64,000 bases of DNA, taken from Micrococcaceae bacterium Sec5.1. GTDB lineage: Bacteria > Actinomycetota > Actinomycetes > Actinomycetales > Micrococcaceae. The notes beneath the pieces were generated by a model, which searched no databases, was not told where the DNA came from, and saw only the letters and a list, made by a program, of their open reading frames with translations. The translations under genes and the position numbers were made by a program. This document shows, piece by piece, positions 47,169-58,325 of this stretch (position 1 is the first letter of the stretch; every line of letters begins with the position of its first letter). The DNA is taken from NCBI GenBank assembly GCA_039636795.1, contig CP143430.1:5270001-5334000 (forward strand), read 5' to 3'.

Positions 47169-47291
47169 TCCATCACGGCCTCGGCTATCAGGGTCTTGTG
47201 GGGAATCGGGCGAAGGGCCAATCTGTACCTAGGACGCTGGCGCGCAGGTTTCAAGAACCCGTGCCGACGCCCCTCGCACAAGGGATCCGCC

Positions 47292-49817
47292 ATGGACTGT
47301 GACATCGAGCTGGAGATCGATACCGGCTCTGCACGCGGCGAATACACGGTGCACGTGGTCCGTGCTCCGGCAGGAGGCCACGCTTCGGGGATGTTCACTT
47401 TGGACGTTGACGGCATCCTGGACCGGCTTCCCCAACTTGAAGCCACCGTCCTTGCCTCCGCAGTGGCCGCCCGGCGCACTATGCCCGTGGCCGAGATGGC
47501 AGTCCGCGAAGTAGGCCAACAATTGTTCCAGGCCTTGTTCACGCGCGAGGTCTACGGCACGTACCGGGCCAGCCTTGGCGCGGCCCAACACGCTGGCCAG
47601 CAACTCAGGGTGGTCCTGCGGCTTGCCGCGCCGGAATTGGCAACCATGCCGTGGGAGACCCTCTTCGACCCCGAAACCGAAACGTACCTGTGCCAAACGG
47701 AACCCCTGTTGCGGCATATCCCTGCTCCCGACTACAACCAGAACCCCTTGGACGTGGCTCCCCCGCTGCGGATCCTGGGCATCGTCGCTTCACCCCGGGA
47801 CCTTCCTACCCTCGATGTCGATGCCGAGAAGGACCACCTGAGCAGGGCGTTGGCTGGCCCCGTGGCCGAAGGACGCGTGGAGCTGGTTTGGTCCAGGAGC
47901 GGGACCTGGGACGACGTTCAGTCCCTGCTGCTCGCCGGCCCATGGCATGTGGTCCATTTCGTGGGCCACGGCGATTACGATTCCCGGACCGACGAAGGCA
48001 GGATCGCTCTCGTCGGACCCGACGGCAGGGCCGCCATGGTCCGCGCCGTGCGCCTCATGGCCTTGCTCAGCGTTGCCGCACCACGCCCGCGACTCGTGGT
48101 GTTGAACTCGTGTTCCTCCGGAGAGATGGGCCAATCGGACCTCTTTTCCGGTACCGCTTCGTCCTTGGTCAGGAGCGGGATAGGCGCCGTCGCGGCAATG
48201 CAGTTCGCCATCAGTGACTCCGCGGCCATCGCCTTCGCCCACGGCTTCTACGCCGCAATCGCCAATGGCCGAACGGTGGACGAGGCAGCACGCGTCGGCC
48301 GGATCTCGGTTATGGCCAGCCCGGACGGCACACTCGAGTGGGTCACCCCGGCCCTCTACGTCCGGGGCGGCTCCACTCAACTCTTCACGCTGCGCGGCAC
48401 GCCACGCGCAACGGTTTCGGAAGCACGTTCGACGCCGGCACCCGCCTTGGACGGGCCAGCCGGCCAAGCTACGGTTCCGACGGCGCCACCCACCTCGGGC
48501 GGGCAAGCGTCCGCCCCGCTCCAAGCTTCGGGCGGCTCCGGCGCGGGAGACGGCGCTGCCGCGAGGGCCGCACAAACCAACGCCGACCAGGCCATGAAGC
48601 GAGCCCAATTGCGAGCCCTTTACGTCCAGGCTTCGGCGGAATTAAGGGCACGACGCTTCGAGCAAGCCGTGGAATTGTTCGATGACCTCCTGACCTTGGA
48701 GCCCGGCTATCGTGACGCCACGGCACTAAGGGAGAGCGCACAGCATCGGCTGGACATGTCCCGCACCTACCGTGAGGCACTCGCCGCTGAAGAGACCGGC
48801 GATTGGCTGGCCGCGGCGGACGGCTTTGCCCTGGTGCAGGAAGATCCGGAGTTCCCGGAAGCAGCAAGCCGACGACAGGACTGCGAGCGCCGTCAGCGCA
48901 TCTCCGACCTCCAGGGCGAGCTGCGCTACCACTCGTCTTTGGGCTCGTGGGGAGCCGTGGTGGACGTATCAGCCGAACTTGCGACGCTGGACCCGGACGC
49001 GGCCGACCCCGACGGACTTGCGAGCGCTGCCAGGGCTGAGATCGAGAAGGCGAAGCCACCAGAACCGGAGCCGCCAAAGCAACCTTCCCCGGAAAGAGGT
49101 TCATATACGGCAGCGGACCTTTCTCCAGAGCCCCGGCGGCCAACCACAGCCCCCACAACGAGAGTCAAAGCACCAAACCAGGTCCCGCCGTCGAGCACTC
49201 CATTCGCGAAACCGCCGCAACCAGCACTTGCTTGGACCCCGCTCGCGTGGGGCGGTGCGGCCTTGGCGGTCGCGGGCGCCATGGGGGCGTGCATCGTGGT
49301 GTTCTTCATGTGGTTCGACGAGACTTACTGGCAGGACAACGGCGGCGACATCGTGCTCCGGATCCTGTACGGACTTCTGGCACCGCTCGGTTATGTGCTG
49401 CTCATGGTCGCCGGACTGCCCGAGCGGACCGTACCAGCGCGTGTTGCGATGACCGGCGTCGTGCTTTCCGGGGCGATCTTTGGGCTTGCCGGCCTTAACT
49501 ACACCGTGGAAGTGACCGCCGTCGTGGCCAGTTTTATCCTGGCCGCCTTCGGACTTTGGGCGGGCATCATGGCCTTGAAGCACCCGGAACTGCGAACGTT
49601 TGCGTGGCTCCTGCTGCTGCCCACCGTGCTGCAACCGATCATCTGGATCCAAGGGAAAGGCGTGTTCATGGAGAGCTGGTACATGTCGCAGGCGCTGCCG
49701 TTGCTGCTGCATCTGATGCTTCTTTGCGCGGTGGGCGTGGTGTTCGTCGTGATGGCGCGGCGCCTTCGGCCAGCCACTGTAGCGGGACCAGCTGCCAAGG
49801 CCGGAACGTCGCCATGA
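47292..49817 (+). CDS. CHAT-domain (caspase-like) protease with TPR-like linker and C-terminal membrane domain
   Basis: 841 aa. Residues 1 to about 370 form a CHAT peptidase: catalytic His226 in 'VVHFVGHGDYD' and Cys274 in 'VVLNSCSSGE', followed by 'GIGAVAAMQFAISDSAAIAFAHGFYAAI'. About 440-620 is helical and repeat-like ('QASAELRARRFEQAVELFDDLLTLEPGYRDA'), a TPR-type scaffold. A Pro-rich linker leads to about six membrane helices (about 650-830). CHAT proteases act in bacterial cell-death and antiphage systems by cleaving partner proteins. Its stop overlaps the start of the next gene. ATG with AAGGGA upstream. Confidence 0.88.
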   Translation: MDCDIELEIDTGSARGEYTVHVVRAPAGGHASGMFTLDVDGILDRLPQLEATVLASAVAARRTMPVAEMAVREVGQQLFQALFTREVYGTYRASLGAAQHAGQQLRVVLRLAAPELATMPWETLFDPETETYLCQTEPLLRHIPAPDYNQNPLDVAPPLRILGIVASPRDLPTLDVDAEKDHLSRALAGPVAEGRVELVWSRSGTWDDVQSLLLAGPWHVVHFVGHGDYDSRTDEGRIALVGPDGRAAMVRAVRLMALLSVAAPRPRLVVLNSCSSGEMGQSDLFSGTASSLVRSGIGAVAAMQFAISDSAAIAFAHGFYAAIANGRTVDEAARVGRISVMASPDGTLEWVTPALYVRGGSTQLFTLRGTPRATVSEARSTPAPALDGPAGQATVPTAPPTSGGQASAPLQASGGSGAGDGAAARAAQTNADQAMKRAQLRALYVQASAELRARRFEQAVELFDDLLTLEPGYRDATALRESAQHRLDMSRTYREALAAEETGDWLAAADGFALVQEDPEFPEAASRRQDCERRQRISDLQGELRYHSSLGSWGAVVDVSAELATLDPDAADPDGLASAARAEIEKAKPPEPEPPKQPSPERGSYTAADLSPEPRRPTTAPTTRVKAPNQVPPSSTPFAKPPQPALAWTPLAWGGAALAVAGAMGACIVVFFMWFDETYWQDNGGDIVLRILYGLLAPLGYVLLMVAGLPERTVPARVAMTGVVLSGAIFGLAGLNYTVEVTAVVASFILAAFGLWAGIMALKHPELRTFAWLLLLPTVLQPIIWIQGKGVFMESWYMSQALPLLLHLMLLCAVGVVFVVMARRLRPATVAGPAAKAGTSP

Positions 49818-50967: not shown

Positions 50968-52359
50968 TCACCTCACGAACGTGTACAGCAGCGCCGCCAT
51001 TGCGAAGCCCACGATCGACAACACTGTCTCCAGGACGGTCCACGTCTTCAGGGTGTCCTTGACTGACATGTTGAAGTACTTGGAGATGATCCAGAAGCCG
51101 CCATCGTTGACGTGGCTGGCGATGATGGAGCCGGAGGAGATCGCCACCACGATCAGGGCGAGCTGCGGCTGGGAGTAACCCGAGGCCAAGCTCGGGGCCA
51201 GGATGCCGCCGGTGGTGACGATCGCCACGGTCGCCGAGCCCTGTGCAATGCGCATGCCCGCGCTGATCACGAAGGCGGAGAGGATGATCGGCAGGCCGGC
51301 CTGGGCCAGCGAGTCCGCCACAGCCTTGCCCACACCGGTAGCCGAAAGAACTGCGCCAAAGAACGCACCGGCGCCAACAACCAGCAGGATCATGCCCACG
51401 GGACGAAGCGATGAACCCGTGATTTCGCTGAGTTCGGCGGAGCTCATGCCGCGTCGGATGCCCAGGAGCCACATGGCCAGCAGCACGGCGACGGTCAGCG
51501 CGATGGCCGGGTTACCGAAGAACTGGAGTATGTCCCGGAAAACACCGGGAGGAGCAAAGATGTTACCGAACGTGCCGCCAAGGATGAGGATCATGGGCAG
51601 GCCGATAGCCAGCAGCACCAGCCCGATGGACGGCTCGTGGCCACGCGCTTCCTCGGCCTCAGCAACGATGCGGTCCTCGGGAACATTCACCATCACGCGC
51701 TTGCCGATCCACGTGCCCCACAAAATACCGGAGGCGAACCAGGCCGGGATGCCGCAGATGAGGCCCATGAGGATGATCCAGCCAAGGTCAACATGGAAAA
51801 GGCCGGCGGCAGCAACGGGACCGGGGTGCGGTGGCAGGAAGGCGTGTGTCACGGAGAGGCCGGCCAGCAACGGAAGCGCGTACAGTGCCAGCGACTTACC
51901 ACCGCGAATTGCAGCGACGTAAACCAAGGGCGCCAGGACGAAGATGCCGATATCGAAGAACACCGGAATACCCAGCACAAAGCCGGTGATACCCATGGCG
52001 AGCGGGGTGCCCTTTTCGCCGAAGATCTTCACGAGCCTGCCGAGCAGCACTTCCGCGCCCCCAGAGCGTTCGAGGATGGCACCGAGCACTGTACCGAGGC
52101 CGATGATCACGGTGATGTGGCCAAGGATGCCGGCAAAGCCCTTCTCAATCAGGGCGTCACTGCTCTTGGTGGCCGAGCCGACCAACGCTTCAACCGAGAC
52201 CCCACCCACCAAAGCCACGATCACGCCGGTTCCCACCAGGGCGATGAACGGTTCGAGCTTGACCTTGATGATCAGGAACAGCAGGAGGGCGATGCCCGCG
52301 CCTGCCAGGAGGAGCAGGCCGGCGGTGTCATGCCGCAGCCATTCGAGAAATTCATTCAT
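50968..52359 (-). CDS. GntP-family gluconate/sugar-acid permease
   Basis: 463 aa with 12 or more membrane segments. 'GIPVFFDIGIFVLAPLVYVAA', 'GLSVTHAFLPPHPGPVAAAGLFHVDLG' and 'SGSIIASHVNDGGFWIISKYFNMSVKDTLKTWTVLET' are nearly diagnostic of GntP. The family imports gluconate and similar aldonic acids. Here it is the last gene of a run with KDPG aldolase, an N-acyl-D-amino-acid deacylase and a D-amino acid deaminase, which points to an amino-sugar acid such as (N-acetyl)glucosaminate as cargo. ATG at 52359 with AGAAAG upstream. Confidence 0.92.
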   Translation of the reverse strand: MNEFLEWLRHDTAGLLLLAGAGIALLLFLIIKVKLEPFIALVGTGVIVALVGGVSVEALVGSATKSSDALIEKGFAGILGHITVIIGLGTVLGAILERSGGAEVLLGRLVKIFGEKGTPLAMGITGFVLGIPVFFDIGIFVLAPLVYVAAIRGGKSLALYALPLLAGLSVTHAFLPPHPGPVAAAGLFHVDLGWIILMGLICGIPAWFASGILWGTWIGKRVMVNVPEDRIVAEAEEARGHEPSIGLVLLAIGLPMILILGGTFGNIFAPPGVFRDILQFFGNPAIALTVAVLLAMWLLGIRRGMSSAELSEITGSSLRPVGMILLVVGAGAFFGAVLSATGVGKAVADSLAQAGLPIILSAFVISAGMRIAQGSATVAIVTTGGILAPSLASGYSQPQLALIVVAISSGSIIASHVNDGGFWIISKYFNMSVKDTLKTWTVLETVLSIVGFAMAALLYTFVR

Positions 52360-52381
52360 GGGGATTCTTTCTGGGTGAGTC

Positions 52382-53017
52382 CTACTTGAGGGTGCCGGTA
52401 AACGCGGCGGCACGGGCCGCGATGTCTGCCCAGTTGCCTGCAGCGACCGCTGCGGGCGGGACCACGCTGGTGCCGCAGCAGACTGCGGCAGCACCGGCGT
52501 CGAGATAGCTCTTTGCGTTGGAAGCGTCGATGCCTCCCGAAGGCAACAGGCGGATGCCCGGGTAGGGGCCCTGCAGATCCTTCAGATACGCAGGTCCGAG
52601 TTGCCGGGCAGGGAAAATCTTGACGACGCCGGACCCAAGGTCCAATGCCTGCGCCACTTCGGTGGGCGTCATGGCGCCAAGGCTGAAGGGTATGCCGGCG
52701 GCCACGGCGACTGCGGCGACCTCGGGCCGAATGCCAGGTGTCACCAGGAACTTGGCCCCGGCGTCGATCGCTGCGCGGGCTTGGTCAGCGGTCAGGACCG
52801 TACCGATTCCGACGGCGGCACCATGGTCTGCTGCAGTCTCTGCCGCGCGCTTGACGTGCTTGAGCGCATCCGGTGTGGTGAACGTCAGTTCCACGCTGCG
52901 GATGCCGCCGTCGGCCAATGCCCGGCAGAGATCCGCGGCGTCCGTGATGGACGGAGCGCGGACCACGGCCAGGGTGCGGTCGGCTTCAAGCTGCTGGATG
53001 AATTCTTCAGGAGTCAT
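52382..53017 (-). CDS. eda: 2-keto-3-deoxy-6-phosphogluconate (KDPG) aldolase
   Basis: 211 aa class I aldolase. The Schiff-base Lys is in 'GVVKIFPARQLGPAYLKDL', the Glu general acid in 'SVELTFTTPDA', and the phosphate site in 'RLLPSGGIDASN'. It splits KDPG to pyruvate and glyceraldehyde-3-phosphate. Its ATG overlaps the stop of the deacylase gene. With the KDG kinase across the divergent promoter it completes the lower part of the cluster's pathway. Confidence 0.9.
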   Translation of the reverse strand: MTPEEFIQQLEADRTLAVVRAPSITDAADLCRALADGGIRSVELTFTTPDALKHVKRAAETAADHGAAVGIGTVLTADQARAAIDAGAKFLVTPGIRPEVAAVAVAAGIPFSLGAMTPTEVAQALDLGSGVVKIFPARQLGPAYLKDLQGPYPGIRLLPSGGIDASNAKSYLDAGAAAVCCGTSVVPPAAVAAGNWADIAARAAAFTGTLK

Positions 53018-54696
53018 GGGTGGTGCTGCTTTCCTTCTCGGGTGAGTCCGTCACTGCTTCGACGCAGCGCACGGCCGGCGCGGGCACCGGTGGGCTGGCC
53101 GCCGTCGATCGCTGCTTCGCCGTTGACGAAGACGTAATGGATGCCGCTGGCGGCTTGGCGGGGATTCTCAAAAGTGGCTTCGTCGCGGATGGTCTCCGGA
53201 TCGAAGAGCACGACGTCGGCCGCGTAGCCCTCGCGAACCAGTCCCCTGTTGTGGAGCTTGAGTCGTGCGGCCGGCCGCCCAGTCAGGTGATGAACGGTTT
53301 CCTCGAGGCTGAGCAATCCGAGATCGCGGGAGTAGTGGCCGAGGTAGCGCGGGAAGGTTCCCCAGGCGCGGGGGTGTGGCTTGGCGCCGACCAGGAGGCC
53401 GTCGCTGCCGCCGGTGTGCGTGCGGTGTTTCATGATGGCCTGGACGTTTTCCTCGTGCCCCACGTGCTGCAGGATGCCGGTGCCGAGGCGGTCTTCGGTG
53501 AGGATGCGGGCGAAGACATCGAACGGCTGCTCGTTGGTCTCCGCGGCGATGTCCTTGATGGTCTTGCCCACGAGTCCTGCGAGCGCCGGGTTCTGGACGC
53601 CGCTGATTTCCAGGGTGTCCCACTCGGCAACTACCCCGTGGCAGCCGTCGGATCCGTAGATCTCCACGGCTTCCCGGATGCGGGCGCGGGACTCGGGATC
53701 TGCCAGGCGGGCAAGCGTCGCTTCCGTTCCGCCGGACGATGCCCAGCTGGGCAGGATCGCGGAAAGCGTGGTGGCGCCGGGGAGGTAGGGGTAGGTGTCC
53801 AGGGTGATGTCGACGCCTTGCTCCAGGGCTTCATCGATGAGCTCCAGGAGTTCGCCTGCCCGGCCCTTGTTCTCCGCGAAGTTCATGGTGGCGTGGGACA
53901 AATGAAGGGCGCAGCCTGTGTCCCGGCTCAGCCCGATCATCTCCGCATACGCACCCAGCGCACCCTTGCCGTAGGAACGGTGATGGGGTGCGTAGAAGCC
54001 GCCCAGCTCCCCCACAGTCCTGCAGAGGCCAGCGAGTTCTTCGGTCTGCGCGTACATGCCCGGCGTGTAGGTCAGGCCGGAGGACATTCCGACGGCGCCC
54101 TCCTCCATGGCCAACCGGATGACGTCCTGCATCTGCTGCTGTTGCTCCGGCGTCGGGTCGCCTTCGGCGAAGCCCATCACCATGGCCCGGACGGTTCCTT
54201 GAGGTACCAGGTAGGCTGCATTGGTGGCGATGCGGCCTGTAGAGCCATCCGCATCGGTGACCTCGCTATCCAGCCGTTCCAGGTACTCCCCCACGGTCCG
54301 CCAGTTCCAGTCGAAGTCCGTTGGGTTATCGTTCCAACCAGCGATCTTCTCCCGGACACCGGCAAGCGTGGCATCATCCACTGGCGCGTAAGACAGGCCG
54401 TCCTGGCCGAGCAGTTCTGTAGTAACGCCTTGGCTGAGCTTCGCGTAGTGCTGCCTGTTAACAAGCAGTTGCAGGTCAGAATGCGCGTGCATGTCGATGA
54501 AGCCGGGACTCAGGACCAGGCCGGCGGCGTCGATAACGCGGTCCGCGCCGGTTGAGGCTGCAGTGAGGGAACCAGCGGTGAGGGAACCGGCGTCGACGAC
54601 GGCGGCAATCACCGCACCGTCCAGCAGGACATCCGCCGTGCGGCGGTCCGCTCCGGTTCCATCCACCAGGGTGGCGTTGCTGATAAGGGTCTTCAT
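53014..54696 (-). CDS. N-acyl-D-amino-acid deacylase family amidohydrolase, candidate N-acetylglucosaminate deacetylase
   Basis: 560 aa amidohydrolase of the D-aminoacylase group. Metal-site marks are 'GFIDMHAHSDLQLL', 'GFYAPHHRSYGKGALGAY', 'LHLSHATMNFAENKGRAGELLELIDEA' and 'HTGGSDGLLVGAKPHPRAWG', whose Asp is the catalytic base. D-aminoacylases remove the acyl group from N-acyl-D-amino acids. Next to genes for KDG/KDPG metabolism the likely substrate is N-acetyl-D-glucosaminate, which has the D (2R) configuration at its amino carbon. Coupled with eda by ATGA. Confidence 0.85.
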   Translation of the reverse strand: MKTLISNATLVDGTGADRRTADVLLDGAVIAAVVDAGSLTAGSLTAASTGADRVIDAAGLVLSPGFIDMHAHSDLQLLVNRQHYAKLSQGVTTELLGQDGLSYAPVDDATLAGVREKIAGWNDNPTDFDWNWRTVGEYLERLDSEVTDADGSTGRIATNAAYLVPQGTVRAMVMGFAEGDPTPEQQQQMQDVIRLAMEEGAVGMSSGLTYTPGMYAQTEELAGLCRTVGELGGFYAPHHRSYGKGALGAYAEMIGLSRDTGCALHLSHATMNFAENKGRAGELLELIDEALEQGVDITLDTYPYLPGATTLSAILPSWASSGGTEATLARLADPESRARIREAVEIYGSDGCHGVVAEWDTLEISGVQNPALAGLVGKTIKDIAAETNEQPFDVFARILTEDRLGTGILQHVGHEENVQAIMKHRTHTGGSDGLLVGAKPHPRAWGTFPRYLGHYSRDLGLLSLEETVHHLTGRPAARLKLHNRGLVREGYAADVVLFDPETIRDEATFENPRQAASGIHYVFVNGEAAIDGGQPTGARAGRALRRSSDGLTREGKQHHP

Positions 54697-54706
54697 GGCA
54701 GGGGTC

Positions 54707-56020
54707 CTAGAAGAAGGTATGGATAAGGTCGACGACGGCCTGGTTGCCTGTGTTTTCGGCGGACGAGAGCACCGGGATGACGGTCCACTTATCGAAGGCT
54801 GTGCAGGGATGGGACAGGCCCAGGCGGATCACATCGCCGGGTTGGACGCTGGTGGTGTCGGGATCGTAGGTCATGAAGCAGTGCTGATCGTTGACCGACG
54901 TGATTTCGGCTCCACGCAGTGATTCCATCGCTCCGCCGAGCACGGGACCGATGAGCTGCGGCTCCGGAAGTCCTTCGTCGAACGGGAGGTCGCGTTTGCC
55001 GGCGTCGAGGATGGCCAAGCCCGGCTCCGTTTGCGATACGACCCTCGCCCAAGCGTGCATTCCCGCCCGGAACGGCTGATCACCCTCGCGGGAGAAAGGC
55101 GAGATTCCGCGGTAGAACCCGTCGTCGTGAATGATGTAGGCGCCGCTGCGGATCATGAGGTCCACGCTGGGATCTCCCATTTCGGCCCCTGTGCTGATGC
55201 AGGGCGAGAGGACGGTGACGACGTCATCGAAGTAGGCGCTGCCACCGGCGGTGATGATCACTTCGCTGGAATCGTAGAAACCCCCGGCGAGCAGTTCCTC
55301 GTGAAGCAGCCGCATCTGGGCGAGGTAGCCGCGGACGGCACCCAGTCCGGCGTCGTCGGCTGTGTGCGCGAGCGAGCCTTCGTAGCCGCTGACACCTACC
55401 AACCGCAGATTCGGTGAAGCAGCAACCGCGCGGGCCACCGCCATGGCAGCGTCAACGCCCCGGGCTCCGGTCCGGCCTCCATGCGCACCGAGCTCTACGA
55501 GCACATCCAGCACGGCGTCGCTGCCGGAGAGCACGCGGTTGATGACCTCCATGGTTCCCACCGAGTCCACCCACGACAGGATCGGCGCATCGGCAGTGGA
55601 CGTTCCCGCCACCCATTCGATGGCGTGCGGGTCCGTGAGGCTGTTGGCGAGCTGAAGGTTCCGGACGCCGAACTCGCGGGCTACCCGAAGCTGCGCGAAG
55701 TTCGCCAACGTGATTCCCCAGGCTCCGCGATTGAGCTGCTCGGTCCAGAGCTGGGGAGACATCGTCGTCTTGCCGTGCGGCGCTAACAGCACGCCGTGTT
55801 CCTTGCACCATTCGGCCAAGTGATCGGCGTTGGCCTGGAGCGCAGCACTATCAAGTGTGAGCAGCGGCGTCTGGAGATCGGCCAGCGTGTGCTTGGCCGC
55901 AAGGAATTCGGCGTGCGTGCTCCCGTTGGCGGTGGCCGGAATGGCCTTGTGCCGCCAATCGAGTTGACGGTCTGCAAGGCTGGCCACTGCGTGTGCCGAG
56001 ATGGCTTCGGAAGTGTTCAC
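54707..56020 (-). CDS. D-amino-acid deaminase/dehydratase of the DSD1/D-threonine aldolase family, candidate glucosaminate deaminase
   Basis: 437 aa PLP fold-type III enzyme. PLP Lys is K84 in 'LLAPHGKTTMSPQLW', and the metal pair His-x-Cys in 'LGLSHPCTAFDKW'. It is longer than D-threonine aldolase by an N-terminal extension of about 50 residues, as in proteins annotated amino acid deaminase. It would remove water and then ammonia from a D-beta-hydroxy amino acid; glucosaminate would give 2-keto-3-deoxygluconate. Start is GTG at 56020 with AAGGGA upstream. First gene of the leftward operon. Confidence 0.84.
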   Translation of the reverse strand: MNTSEAISAHAVASLADRQLDWRHKAIPATANGSTHAEFLAAKHTLADLQTPLLTLDSAALQANADHLAEWCKEHGVLLAPHGKTTMSPQLWTEQLNRGAWGITLANFAQLRVAREFGVRNLQLANSLTDPHAIEWVAGTSTADAPILSWVDSVGTMEVINRVLSGSDAVLDVLVELGAHGGRTGARGVDAAMAVARAVAASPNLRLVGVSGYEGSLAHTADDAGLGAVRGYLAQMRLLHEELLAGGFYDSSEVIITAGGSAYFDDVVTVLSPCISTGAEMGDPSVDLMIRSGAYIIHDDGFYRGISPFSREGDQPFRAGMHAWARVVSQTEPGLAILDAGKRDLPFDEGLPEPQLIGPVLGGAMESLRGAEITSVNDQHCFMTYDPDTTSVQPGDVIRLGLSHPCTAFDKWTVIPVLSSAENTGNQAVVDLIHTFF

Positions 56021-56041
56021 GGGTTCATTCCCTTCGCGGTT

Positions 56042-56074
56042 GCGTTGCGTATTTTGCAACGCTGGTTGCAAACC
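56042..56074. promoter_or_regulatory. Operator array between the divergent amino-sugar-acid operons
   Basis: Overlapping palindromes are GCGTTGC-N7-GCAACGC (56042-56062) and TTTGCAAC-GCTG-GTTGCAAA (56053-56072). They share GTTGC/GCAAC half-sites. The array lies 22-52 bp from the leftward GTG start and about 80-110 bp from the rightward ATG, so one regulator, most likely the IclR protein encoded at 57163, could control both operons. Confidence 0.7.
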
Positions 56075-56150
56075 TGATGGTGATATGTCTAACATGGTGG
56101 CGGATCGAGAGTCAAGGCCGCGCAGAAGCGCACGAACTAGTGGGAGAACG

Positions 56151-57158
56151 ATGCTTTCAGCTGTATGCGTTGGCGAAACAATGGCCATGCTTACCCCTGT
56201 CCAGGCCGTTCCCCTGCACCTCGCAACCGAACTCCACTGCGGAATTGGTGGCGCTGAGTCCAATGTCGCCATGGGACTCGCGGCCATGGGCCTGGAGACG
56301 CACTGGGTTAGCCGGGTGGGCCATGACGGCTTCGGCACGCGCATCCTTGACGAGCTTCAAGCGCACGGAGTGGGAGTCTCCGGCGTCGAGGTGGACGAGT
56401 CCCGGCCCACCGGCCTCTACGTGAAGGTCCCCGCCCAGGAAACAGACCCCGACGGCGGCAGCTCAGTTTTGTACTATCGGCAGGGTTCTGCGGCGTCGGC
56501 CATGGGACGCCCATTGCTTTCCAATCCCGCTGTTTCGTCACTGCTGGAAAATGCGGCCCTCATCCACCTGAGTGGCATCACCGCTGCCCTGTCCGCCGAG
56601 TGCCTGTCTCTCCTGGAGGCCATGCTGACCGAGCCGCGGAACGGGCGCATCGTCAGCTTCGACGTCAATTGGCGCGAAGCCCTCTGGGCGGGCCAGGATC
56701 GTTCGGTCCTGCAGCGCCTGGCGAACCTGGCCGACGTCGTGCTGGTTGGAAAAGACGAAGCCGAGCACGCCTTTGGCACCACCGACGAAGCCGAACTCCG
56801 TCGTCTAATGCCGGACCCTCAGGTGCTGGTCATCAAGAACGAGGCGATCAGCGCCATCTCTTTGGACCGGGCCGGCACCCGGGAGGAAGTTCCCGCACTG
56901 TCCGTCGCCGTCGTCGAGCCTGTTGGCGCGGGTGACTCGTTCGCCGCCGGTTACCTCAGCGGCATGCTGTTCGGGCTGGGACAAAAGGAGAGCCTCCGGC
57001 GGGGGCACGTCGCTGCTGCCTGTACCTTGACCGTCCATGGCGACCGCGGCCCACTGCCTGACGCTGTTGAGCTCGCGGCCATCCTCGATTCTTCGGATGA
57101 GGACTGGGCTGCTATCCATGTTGAAGAGGGACGTTTCAACACCAGAACCGGAGCGTGA
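56151..57158 (+). CDS. kdgK: 2-keto-3-deoxygluconate kinase (PfkB family)
   Basis: 335 aa ribokinase-fold sugar kinase. Seen are 'CVGETMAMLTP', the sugar-binding 'CGIGGAESNVAMGLAAMG', 'FDVNWREALWAG', 'LVGKDEAEHAFG' and the anion-hole/catalytic motif 'PVGAGDSFAAGYLSGML'. This set, especially the GGAESNVA start, fits KDG kinases. It would make KDPG for the aldolase encoded across the divergent promoter. The ATG at 56151 has GGGAG upstream; codons further up are in the promoter. Confidence 0.87.
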   Translation: MLSAVCVGETMAMLTPVQAVPLHLATELHCGIGGAESNVAMGLAAMGLETHWVSRVGHDGFGTRILDELQAHGVGVSGVEVDESRPTGLYVKVPAQETDPDGGSSVLYYRQGSAASAMGRPLLSNPAVSSLLENAALIHLSGITAALSAECLSLLEAMLTEPRNGRIVSFDVNWREALWAGQDRSVLQRLANLADVVLVGKDEAEHAFGTTDEAELRRLMPDPQVLVIKNEAISAISLDRAGTREEVPALSVAVVEPVGAGDSFAAGYLSGMLFGLGQKESLRRGHVAAACTLTVHGDRGPLPDAVELAAILDSSDEDWAAIHVEEGRFNTRTGA

Positions 57159-57162
57159 CATT

Positions 57163-57924
57163 TTGAGCCAGAGCCTCATGCGGGCCATCGACCTGCTCGC
57201 CGAACTCGCTGCGAAGCCCGCCACCCTTGACGAACTCTCGTCCAAAGCATCCGTGCACAAAACCACTGTGATGCGGCTCCTGCACGCCATGGAGGAGAAG
57301 CGGTTTGTGGTGCGGGACGAAGAGCAGCGGTTCATGCTGGGTTCCAAACTGTTCGAACTGTCATCGCTGGCCCTTGAGCAGAGGGACATCCGCAAGGTAG
57401 CGCATCCGCACCTCGCCGAGCTGAATGGTCGCACTGGGCACACCGTGCACCTCGCGGCATTTGAAGGAAGCGAGGTGGTGTACATCGATAAGTTCGAGTC
57501 CCACCACCCCGTCCGCATGTACTCGCGCATCGGCCTGACTGCATCGCTGCACTCGGCCGCTGTGTCCAAAGTCCTCCTCGCCGACATGCCGCGGAGCCGG
57601 CAGGAAAAGATCGCGGCGGGGCTGGACTACATCAAAGTTACCGAGAACACCCTGACCTCGCCGGAGGCCTTACTGGCCGAACTCGAGCAGGTCAAGGAAC
57701 AGGGCTGGGCCCACGACAACGCTGAGCACGAGGCATTCGTGCACTGCATCGCGGCCCCCATCCGCGACGCCAGCGGTGCTGTTGTTGCCGCAGCCTCTTG
57801 TTCGGTACCGGTAGTGATGCTCAGCTATGAAGGCTTGCTGGAGCTGCTGCCCGACCTCAAAGCCAGCACCGAGGCCATCTCGAATGACCTCGGCTGGATC
57901 AGCCACGAAAGGAACTCAGCATGA
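57163..57924 (+). CDS. IclR-family regulator of the amino-sugar-acid cluster
   Basis: 253 aa from a TTG start with GGAG nine bases upstream; an ATG 15 codons earlier inside the kinase gene is the alternative. The winged helix is at about 1-65 ('LMRAIDLLAELAAKPATLDELSS', 'TTVMRLLHAMEEKRFVV') and the ligand domain follows ('RMYSRIGLTASLHSAAVSKVLLADMP', 'CIAAPIRDASGAVVAAASCSVP'). KdgR-type IclR proteins sense KDG, and the neighbouring genes make and use KDG, so it is a good KdgR-like candidate. Confidence 0.85.
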   Translation: MSQSLMRAIDLLAELAAKPATLDELSSKASVHKTTVMRLLHAMEEKRFVVRDEEQRFMLGSKLFELSSLALEQRDIRKVAHPHLAELNGRTGHTVHLAAFEGSEVVYIDKFESHHPVRMYSRIGLTASLHSAAVSKVLLADMPRSRQEKIAAGLDYIKVTENTLTSPEALLAELEQVKEQGWAHDNAEHEAFVHCIAAPIRDASGAVVAAASCSVPVVMLSYEGLLELLPDLKASTEAISNDLGWISHERNSA

Positions 57925-58325
57925 GTGAAAAGAACGTAGTACTGACCGAAAACGCCCCGGCCCCGGCGCACGTATTCTCCCAGGGCATCAAAAAGGGCGG
58001 GATGTTCCAGGTCTCGGGCCAGGGCCCCATGGATCCCGCCACCAACCAGTACATCGGCGAGGGCGACGTCCGCGTCCAGACACGTCGCACGCTGGAGAAC
58101 GTGAAGGCCATCCTCGAAGCTGGCGGATCCTCCGTTGAAGACGTCATCATGTTCCGCGTGTACCTCACCACCCGTGATGACTTTGCCGCGATGAACGAGG
58201 TTTACGGGGAGTTCATTCGCGAGAACGTGCCCAGCGGTTTGCTGCCGAGCCGCACCACCGTGTTTGTGGATCTCCCCCACGAGGTCATGCTGGTGGAGAT
58301 CGACGCCCTGGCTGTTACTGCGTAG
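57921..58325 (+). CDS. RidA-family enamine/imine deaminase
   Basis: 134 aa. The catalytic Arg is R111 in 'LLPSRTTVFVDLP' and the Glu E126 in 'VEIDALAV', so a true imine deaminase is likely. It overlaps the IclR stop (ATGA), placing it in the kinase operon. D-amino-acid dehydration by the DSD1-like enzyme passes through an enamine/imine, which this protein would hydrolyse to the keto acid. Confidence 0.9.
   Translation: MSEKNVVLTENAPAPAHVFSQGIKKGGMFQVSGQGPMDPATNQYIGEGDVRVQTRRTLENVKAILEAGGSSVEDVIMFRVYLTTRDDFAAMNEVYGEFIRENVPSGLLPSRTTVFVDLPHEVMLVEIDALAVTA

Follow-up and report, generated by a model that had tools for sequence, protein, structure and literature searches.

The 64,000 nt stretch of Micrococcaceae bacterium Sec5.1 analysed here (the window; GenBank assembly GCA_039636795.1, contig CP143430.1, positions 5,270,001 to 5,334,000, from a genome searched as a 5.43 Mb single contig) carries at 50968–58325 a group of seven genes, in which four minus-strand genes encoding a GntP permease, a 2-keto-3-deoxy-6-phosphogluconate (KDPG) aldolase, an amidohydrolase and a DSD1-type deaminase diverge from three plus-strand genes encoding a 2-keto-3-deoxygluconate (KDG)-kinase-like PfkB protein, a KdgR-like IclR regulator and RidA (Table 1). 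All seven frames were free of internal stops and matched the expected families, which bore out the placement of the genes in two divergent operons by a preliminary description made from the sequence alone. The starts of the deaminase and the kinase were refined to a GTG at 56020 and to 56151, leaving a divergent promoter region of ~130 bp between them, and the IclR start is uncertain within 57037–57145. The closest named relatives of the deaminase and the deacylase come from Paenarthrobacter and Arthrobacter. We conclude with modest confidence that the seven genes together serve to break down an N-acylated 2-amino-2-deoxy-D-aldonic acid, the likeliest being N-acetyl-D-glucosaminate (GlcNAc1A).

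Table 1. Predicted genes and candidate operator of the cluster (positions in the window; PLP, pyridoxal 5′-phosphate)
Feature	Position	Strand	Basis
GntP-family permease, 463 aa, predicted sugar-acid importer	50968..52359	-	PF02447 416 bits; TIGR00791 above cut-off
KDPG aldolase, 211 aa	52382..53017	-	KDPG/KHG aldolase family 150 bits; TIGR01182 eda 186.4 bits, cut-off 156.05
D-aminoacylase-like amidohydrolase, 560 aa, predicted N-deacylase	53014..54696	-	Amidohydro_3 133 bits; clade has Asp in place of the Cys metal ligand
Fold-III PLP D-amino-acid deaminase, DSD1-like, 437 aa, predicted D-glucosaminate deaminase	54707..56020	-	PF14031 D-ser_dehydrat 67 bits and Ala_racemase_N
Candidate IclR operator, GCGTTGC-N7-GCAACGC	56042..56062	.	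Perfect inverted repeat in the divergent promoter region
PfkB-family KDG kinase-like protein, 335 aa	56151..57158	+	PF00294 169 bits
IclR-family regulator, KdgR-like	57109..57924	+	PF01614 IclR_C 168 bits
RidA-family enamine/imine deaminase, 134 aa	57921..58325	+	Ribonuc_L-PSP 104 bits; TIGR00004 106.5 bits, cut-off 106.25

A precedent for such a gene set is the ong cluster of the marine bacterium Pseudoalteromonas prydzensis ACAM 620, for which the accessible portions of PMC9537276 describe that GlcNAc1A is deacetylated by OngB, the product is deaminated to KDG by OngC, and KDG is phosphorylated by KdgK, a reaction order shown biochemically. The same cluster encodes OngD, an essential RidA protein of unknown role, and the versions of Vibrio, Klebsiella and Serratia add an aldolase (PMC9537276). 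The window cluster agrees with the ong type in its linkage of genes for a deacylase, a PLP deaminase, RidA and a KDG-kinase-like protein.

The sugar-acid end of the predicted pathway was assessed from the kinase and the aldolase. The closest solved relative of the kinase was the Thermus thermophilus KDG kinase (1v19, 154 bits), and the NCBIfam KDG kinase models were matched below cut-off (146.6 bits, cut-off 400). The aldolase scored as a member of the Eda family, and its closest natural solved relative was the Thermotoga maritima KDPG aldolase (133 bits), against 74 bits for the 2-keto-3-deoxy-6-phosphogalactonate (KDPGal) aldolase 2v81. By their family relations, both proteins point to KDG and KDPG as probable intermediates, that is, to a six-carbon 2-keto-3-deoxy acid that simple D-amino acids do not yield. 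RidA contains the sequence PSR, which may hold the catalytic Arg named in the preliminary description. The deaminase aligned to the solved protein 3GWQ with 182 bits and carries PHGKTT, which presumably holds the PLP lysine, and SHPC, a His-x-Cys pair that we assume to be of the dehydratase type; D-threonine aldolase 4V15 carries SHVD, a His-x-Asp pair presumably of the aldolase type. A text pattern for SHPC matched 23 of 29 cluster-type entries and left six without a match. The PLP lysine and His-x-Cys motifs are common to the window protein and the DSD1-type D-serine/D-threonine deaminases, and D-glucosaminate dehydratases form a further comparison group. In a quick deaminase tree, in which 12 of 45 inner branches are open, the window protein fell in its own clade of 28 entries (SH-aLRT, the Shimodaira–Hasegawa-like approximate likelihood ratio test, 87), 27 of them cluster-type, apart from the OngC clade; two cluster-type entries (L036 and L091) lay outside it. 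A grouping with OngC was not found in this tree, where the five ong entries joined 3GWQ, Comamonas and the single actinobacterial entry L091. The sister of 3GWQ, which is named a D-serine deaminase, is the deaminase of a Cupriavidus metallidurans cluster (L191), and 3GWQ may, from this position, be a glucosaminate deaminase. The Comamonas odontotermitis plasmid cluster (L020:113-11946) combines its deaminase with a D-aminoacylase lacking the OngB residues, RidA, MurR/RpiR, a galactono-kinase, a phosphogalactonate aldolase and an oligopeptide ATP-binding cassette (ABC) importer, and is possibly a galacto-series or other variant.

To assess how far the gene set is conserved, named genomes were scanned with a deacylase-clade alignment, and the best 80 of at least 474 relatives were analysed. 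The deacylase, as the scan query, is present at these loci by selection; a neighbour was counted as present on a tblastn match in the flank with E ≤ 1e-6, and a few of those counted may be paralogues (possibly GntP at 34–37% identity in L097, L124 and L128, and IclR at 34% in L144). The deaminase was present at all 80 loci, RidA and IclR at 72 each, the kinase at 69, GntP at 51 and the aldolase at 33; the corresponding numbers among the 71 loci flanked on either side by 5 kb or more were 71, 68, 66, 61, 47 and 31. The 80 loci, 45 of which are from Streptomycetaceae, span 21 genera and 12 families; in 77 the deaminase is encoded on the same strand as the deacylase and ends upstream of it at a distance of less than 400 bp. 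Four Pseudonocardiaceae loci (L117, L136, L146 and L158) have no kinase and carry a seven-bladed lactonase near GntP.

Closer to the window, the seven genes occurred in identical order in all six examined loci with a deaminase at least 72% identical (L024–L029), one of which sits on a 1.35 Mb plasmid of Arthrobacter sp. StoSoilB13; a further locus of the same genus (L032) has five of the genes as more distant versions in a different arrangement. Of 121 genomes sampled from the genus, in which the deacylase was the only gene searched for the carrier count, 25 (the window's own among them) carry it at ≥84% identity, with the copy in G479 split in two. Retrieval based on the deaminase gave a similar picture: at ≥49% identity, eight of nine non-self relatives (L025–L033) have the deacylase and eight have the kinase, and among the nine weaker relatives (L034–L042) one has the deacylase and none the kinase. 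The related cluster L031 keeps IclR, kinase, deaminase and aldolase without a deacylase, which suggests that the sugar-acid core is independent of the deacylase. Across a phylum sample of 396 genomes, a deacylase at 50–64% identity was present in 14, not counting the window's own, and the deaminase adjoins it in 13 of these (L073–L085; L086 is without an adjoining deaminase); these phylum loci carry RidA in 13 cases, IclR in 12, the kinase in 11, GntP in nine and the aldolase in one. Among six distant deacylases at 32–39% identity (L087–L092), two had no deaminase and no RidA in reach. Collectively, the association of the seven genes exceeds chance.

Next, the deacylase was compared with PpOngB (9KB1/9KB3), for which the accessible portions of PMC12017989 name the residues that hold GlcNAc1A: the alpha-carboxylate is held by Lys254 and Ser291, the sugar-hydroxyl sites include Glu226, Ser290 and Ser292, and the residue set of the OngB group comprises Ser290, Ser291, Ser292, Gln298, Glu226, Lys254 and Cys97. 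A residue alignment with OngB-type proteins of Pseudoalteromonas, Vibrio, Klebsiella and Cupriavidus, AfDam and others indicated that the window protein retains the catalytic Asp, both metal His, Tyr194, Tyr285 and Arg379, and that six of the listed residues are replaced (the metal ligand Cys97 by Asp, Lys254 by Thr, Glu226 by Tyr, Ser290 by Gly, Ser291 by Ala and Ser292 by Thr); at the Gln298 site the alignment is uncertain owing to an insertion. The metal site accordingly has Asp99 for the Cys, with His238, His268 and Asp432 kept, and the protein departs in this Asp from the Cys/His/His site with catalytic Asp of subtype V amidohydrolases. The clade shares three of these replacements throughout, with Asp at the metal site, Tyr at the Glu226 site and Thr at the Ser292 site in 80 of 80 relatives. 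Lys254 is replaced by Thr in 77 and by Val in three, and the position of Ser291 is taken by Ser (31), Cys (27) or Ala (22). Asp350 and His353 of the enlarged insertion region are likewise invariant in all 80, and PpOngB is shorter than the window protein by several tens of residues, mainly in this region.

Among solved proteins, the closest relatives of the deacylase were AfDam (1M7J, 277 bits), BbDam (3GIP, 242), the Klebsiella protein 9G5M (236) and OngB (198). Its predicted structure (mean predicted local distance difference test score, pLDDT, 89) has the shared fold, and the Z scores tie OngB and the D-aminoacylases. AfDam and BbDam have the same fold, catalytic Asp and metal His, and AfDam likewise has Thr at the Ser292 site; they differ in having Cys and Lys where the window protein has Asp and Thr, and the neighbours of the window gene are sugar-acid genes. 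As judged from these residues, the deacylase lies outside the OngB group, the equivalence with the marine enzyme implied by the preliminary description did not hold at the residues that define a GlcNAc1A deacetylase, and, with the OngB ligand residues as well as Lys254 and Cys97 replaced, the substrate cannot be transferred from OngB. The Klebsiella protein 9G5M, named an N-acyl-D-amino-acid deacylase, has the OngB signature of three serines and the Gln298 site, and its gene lies in an ong-type cluster on a Klebsiella pneumoniae plasmid (L190:7580-14844) with RidA, an SSS symporter, MurR/RpiR, and a kinase and an aldolase that bear galactono-type annotations; 9G5M may itself deacetylate GlcNAc1A.

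For regulation, the palindrome at 56042–56062 was invariant in all seven Arthrobacter-type loci compared, the window included, and the best NCBIfam match of the IclR regulator was KdgR (183 bits, below the cut-off of 275). For transport, the ong-type cluster on the Cupriavidus metallidurans CH34 megaplasmid (L191:4978-12346), whose deacylase carries the OngB residues, has GntP in place of the SSS symporter (38% identity to the window GntP), which makes GntP a plausible importer. A PF10282 lactonase adjoins GntP in Amycolatopsis L117 and lies within ~2.3 kb of it in three Saccharopolyspora loci (4/80 in total), which fits a lactone-forming acid. Upstream in the window, a large open reading frame at 47196–49817 (873 aa) appears by eye to be CHAT-domain-like with a C-terminal membrane part.

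From the gene identities, conservation, operator candidate and catalytic signatures, we infer the reactions, substrate, transport and regulation as follows. GntP would import the N-acylated acid, most likely GlcNAc1A, and the amidohydrolase would convert it to D-glucosaminate by removing the acyl group. The PLP deaminase would then remove water across C2–C3, and RidA would speed hydrolysis of the resulting enamine/imine to KDG and ammonia. The PfkB kinase would convert KDG to KDPG, which the aldolase would split into pyruvate and glyceraldehyde-3-phosphate. The KdgR-related IclR protein is predicted to bind the palindrome in the divergent promoter region, with KDG or the substrate as its signal. 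The order deacylase, D-beta-hydroxy-amino-acid deaminase, KDG kinase and KDPG aldolase, already put forward in the preliminary description, is supported. A conserved amino-aldonate module is likewise well supported, with GlcNAc1A as the likeliest substrate.

The link of the cluster to chitin was examined in Streptomyces-like genomes (an inferred label) and in the phylum sample. All 11 Streptomyces-like genomes with the cluster have AA10 genes, two to six each, so that there the acid could come from the organism's own lytic polysaccharide monooxygenases (LPMOs). A GH18-like gene, found by similarity to the L150 chitinase, lies on the kinase side, 1.5–10 kb from the nearest cluster gene, in 10 of the 11; none was found within the stretch taken from the remaining genome, G370. 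Among the 80 named loci, a GH18-like gene occurred within the fetched flank in six, directly upstream of the deaminase in Streptacidiphilus L150. The AA10 query matched 15 of the 396 phylum genomes, and 11 of the 15 genomes with a deacylase at ≥50% identity (own included) have AA10, compared with four of 381 others.

Several results weigh against GlcNAc1A as the substrate or chitin as its source. AA10 (PF03067) had no match in the own genome, with a control positive in 1 of 14, and GH18 had none either; in the genus, AA10 matched 0 of 121 sampled genomes, and GH18 occurred in 4 of 25 deacylase carriers and 7 of 96 others (Fisher p 0.24), with most matches marginal and only 2 of 25 and 3 of 96 above cut-off. 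The AA10 and GH18 associations of the Streptomyces-like genomes belong to one lineage and may go back to one ancestral event, so that the overall AA10 association is not made up of independent cases. In the deacylase, the sequence is closer to the D-aminoacylases than to OngB, Foldseek E-values for the model placed AfDam first and OngB seventh, the GlcNAc1A-binding Ser290/Ser292 and other aligned sites of the OngB group are lacking, and Lys254 and Cys97, which OngB and the D-aminoacylases have in common, are both replaced. Furthermore, the kinase is absent from 11 of the 80 named loci, and the Mycobacterium aquaticum locus (L144) has an amino-acid-type ABC importer and neither kinase nor RidA.

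A source of the acid was sought within the own genome among AA10, GH18 and FAD_binding_4 oxidases and was not found. GH20 had one match; GH19 had none, with its control likewise silent. FAD_binding_4 matched at nine places, seven of which were covered by domain analysis; six gave domains, and the piece from L008 gave none, probably from a wrong frame. The best of these places, ~3 kb from the GH20 match, was rejected as an oligosaccharide oxidase, being an FAD-oxidase_C protein, and L005, of BBE architecture, was rejected as a chitooligosaccharide oxidase, its closest solved relative being EncM (388 bits, against 112 for the chitooligosaccharide oxidase). Within the families and places covered, the search for AA10 LPMO and chitooligosaccharide oxidase genes suggested in the preliminary description yielded neither, and the LPMO-cut chitin that it linked to the cluster found no counterpart in this organism. 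Given the lack of AA10 and GH18 matches, this strain would scavenge the acid from chitin oxidised by other organisms.

These points bear differently on the explanations that compete with GlcNAc1A catabolism. The same core chemistry may serve another substrate, such as D-galactosaminate, another N-acyl-amino-aldonate, another (for example, long-chain) acyl group, the lactone form, or unmodified D-glucosaminate with the deacylase for a side source, which we judge unlikely but worth serious attention. It would account for a deacylase that differs from OngB at every alignable sugar-hydroxyl site, has Thr and Ala at the two carboxylate-holding sites and keeps its own invariant Asp350 and His353, and for the deacylase-free cluster L031; against it, the stronger score of the aldolase with KDPG than with KDPGal aldolase and the KDG kinase as the closest relative of the kinase favour the gluco series, although the galactono annotations in the Klebsiella ong-type cluster suggest that such labels decide little.

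Further removed from sugar acids, the genes could form a D-amino-acid module that deacylates N-acyl-D-amino acids and deaminates D-Ser, D-Thr or a D-beta-hydroxy amino acid, the kinase and aldolase serving something else. This appears improbable given a KDG kinase in 69, GntP in 51 and a KDPG aldolase in 33 of the 80 loci, even if the deacylase is closer in sequence to D-aminoacylases than to OngB and shares with AfDam the Thr in place of Ser292, D-serine deaminase-like proteins belong to the deaminase family, and OngC itself accepts D-Ser and D-Thr (PMC9537276, accessible portions). Amino-acid ABC importers were also found beside such deaminases, in L144, whose deaminase is inside the actinobacterial clade, and in three plasmid relatives, whose deaminases fall outside it. 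That unrelated catabolic genes merely lie side by side is scarcely credible with content and order kept over 21 genera and 12 families; the distant deacylases L087–L092, often without the other genes, and the weak deaminase relatives L034–L042, with one deacylase and no kinase, are the observations that speak for it.

Returning to GlcNAc1A catabolism, a bolder version, which we offer tentatively and with more doubt than conviction, is that Actinomycetota, Streptomyces foremost among the carriers, possess another route for the oxidised chitin end, put together separately from the first. Here GntP and a non-OngC deaminase would be joined by a new-subtype deacetylase (Asp/His/His metal site, enlarged insertion domain) whose GlcNAc1A specificity evolved apart from that of OngB, and LPMO-less strains would be cross-fed by LPMO-bearing soil neighbours. 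Should the predicted function be borne out, Streptomyces and other soil Actinobacteria would possess an oxidative chitin route of their own, which an earlier screen may have missed on account of low identity and of the change in transporter and regulator; it would contribute a deacylase whose metal site is unusual, and LPMO products would be a shared soil food.

An actinobacterial variant of the GlcNAc1A pathway is apparently new and undescribed. No paper on such a cluster was found in the open-access PMC literature, and subscription papers may exist; within that literature, the novelty that the preliminary description saw in an actinobacterial version with GntP and IclR was upheld. The oxidative chitin route is described in the accessible portions of PMC9537276 as essentially gammaproteobacterial, with one betaproteobacterial exception, after a genome screen in which four or more genes had to co-occur with over 30% identity to the marine set. 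Identity to the cluster proteins of Pseudoalteromonas shioyasakiensis, which is not the strain of that paper, was 30% for the deacylase, 31% for the deaminase, 32% for RidA and 24% for the kinase, which may explain why the screen missed the set.

Compared with known systems, the likeness to the Pseudoalteromonas pathway noted in the preliminary description is supported, with the same predicted order of reactions from the acid to KDPG, and the RidA that it regarded as an addition is already part of the marine cluster as the essential OngD (PMC9537276, accessible portions). The ong cluster shares the deacylase, fold-III PLP deaminase, RidA and KDG kinase with the window (PMC9537276). It differs in having the SSS symporter OngIT and MurR/RpiR where the window has GntP and IclR; the window cluster lacks the GH20 OngA and TonB receptor genes of ong, has no AA10 match in its genome, and has the aldolase built in. 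A second parallel is the in silico route from D-glucosaminate to KDPG in the chitin-degrading haloarchaea Natrarchaeobius, whose clusters, in the accessible portions of PMC12343721, resemble the window in an IclR regulator and a 'RutC family' gene, but whose route begins at glucosamine, phosphorylates before ammonia loss and uses a different lyase.

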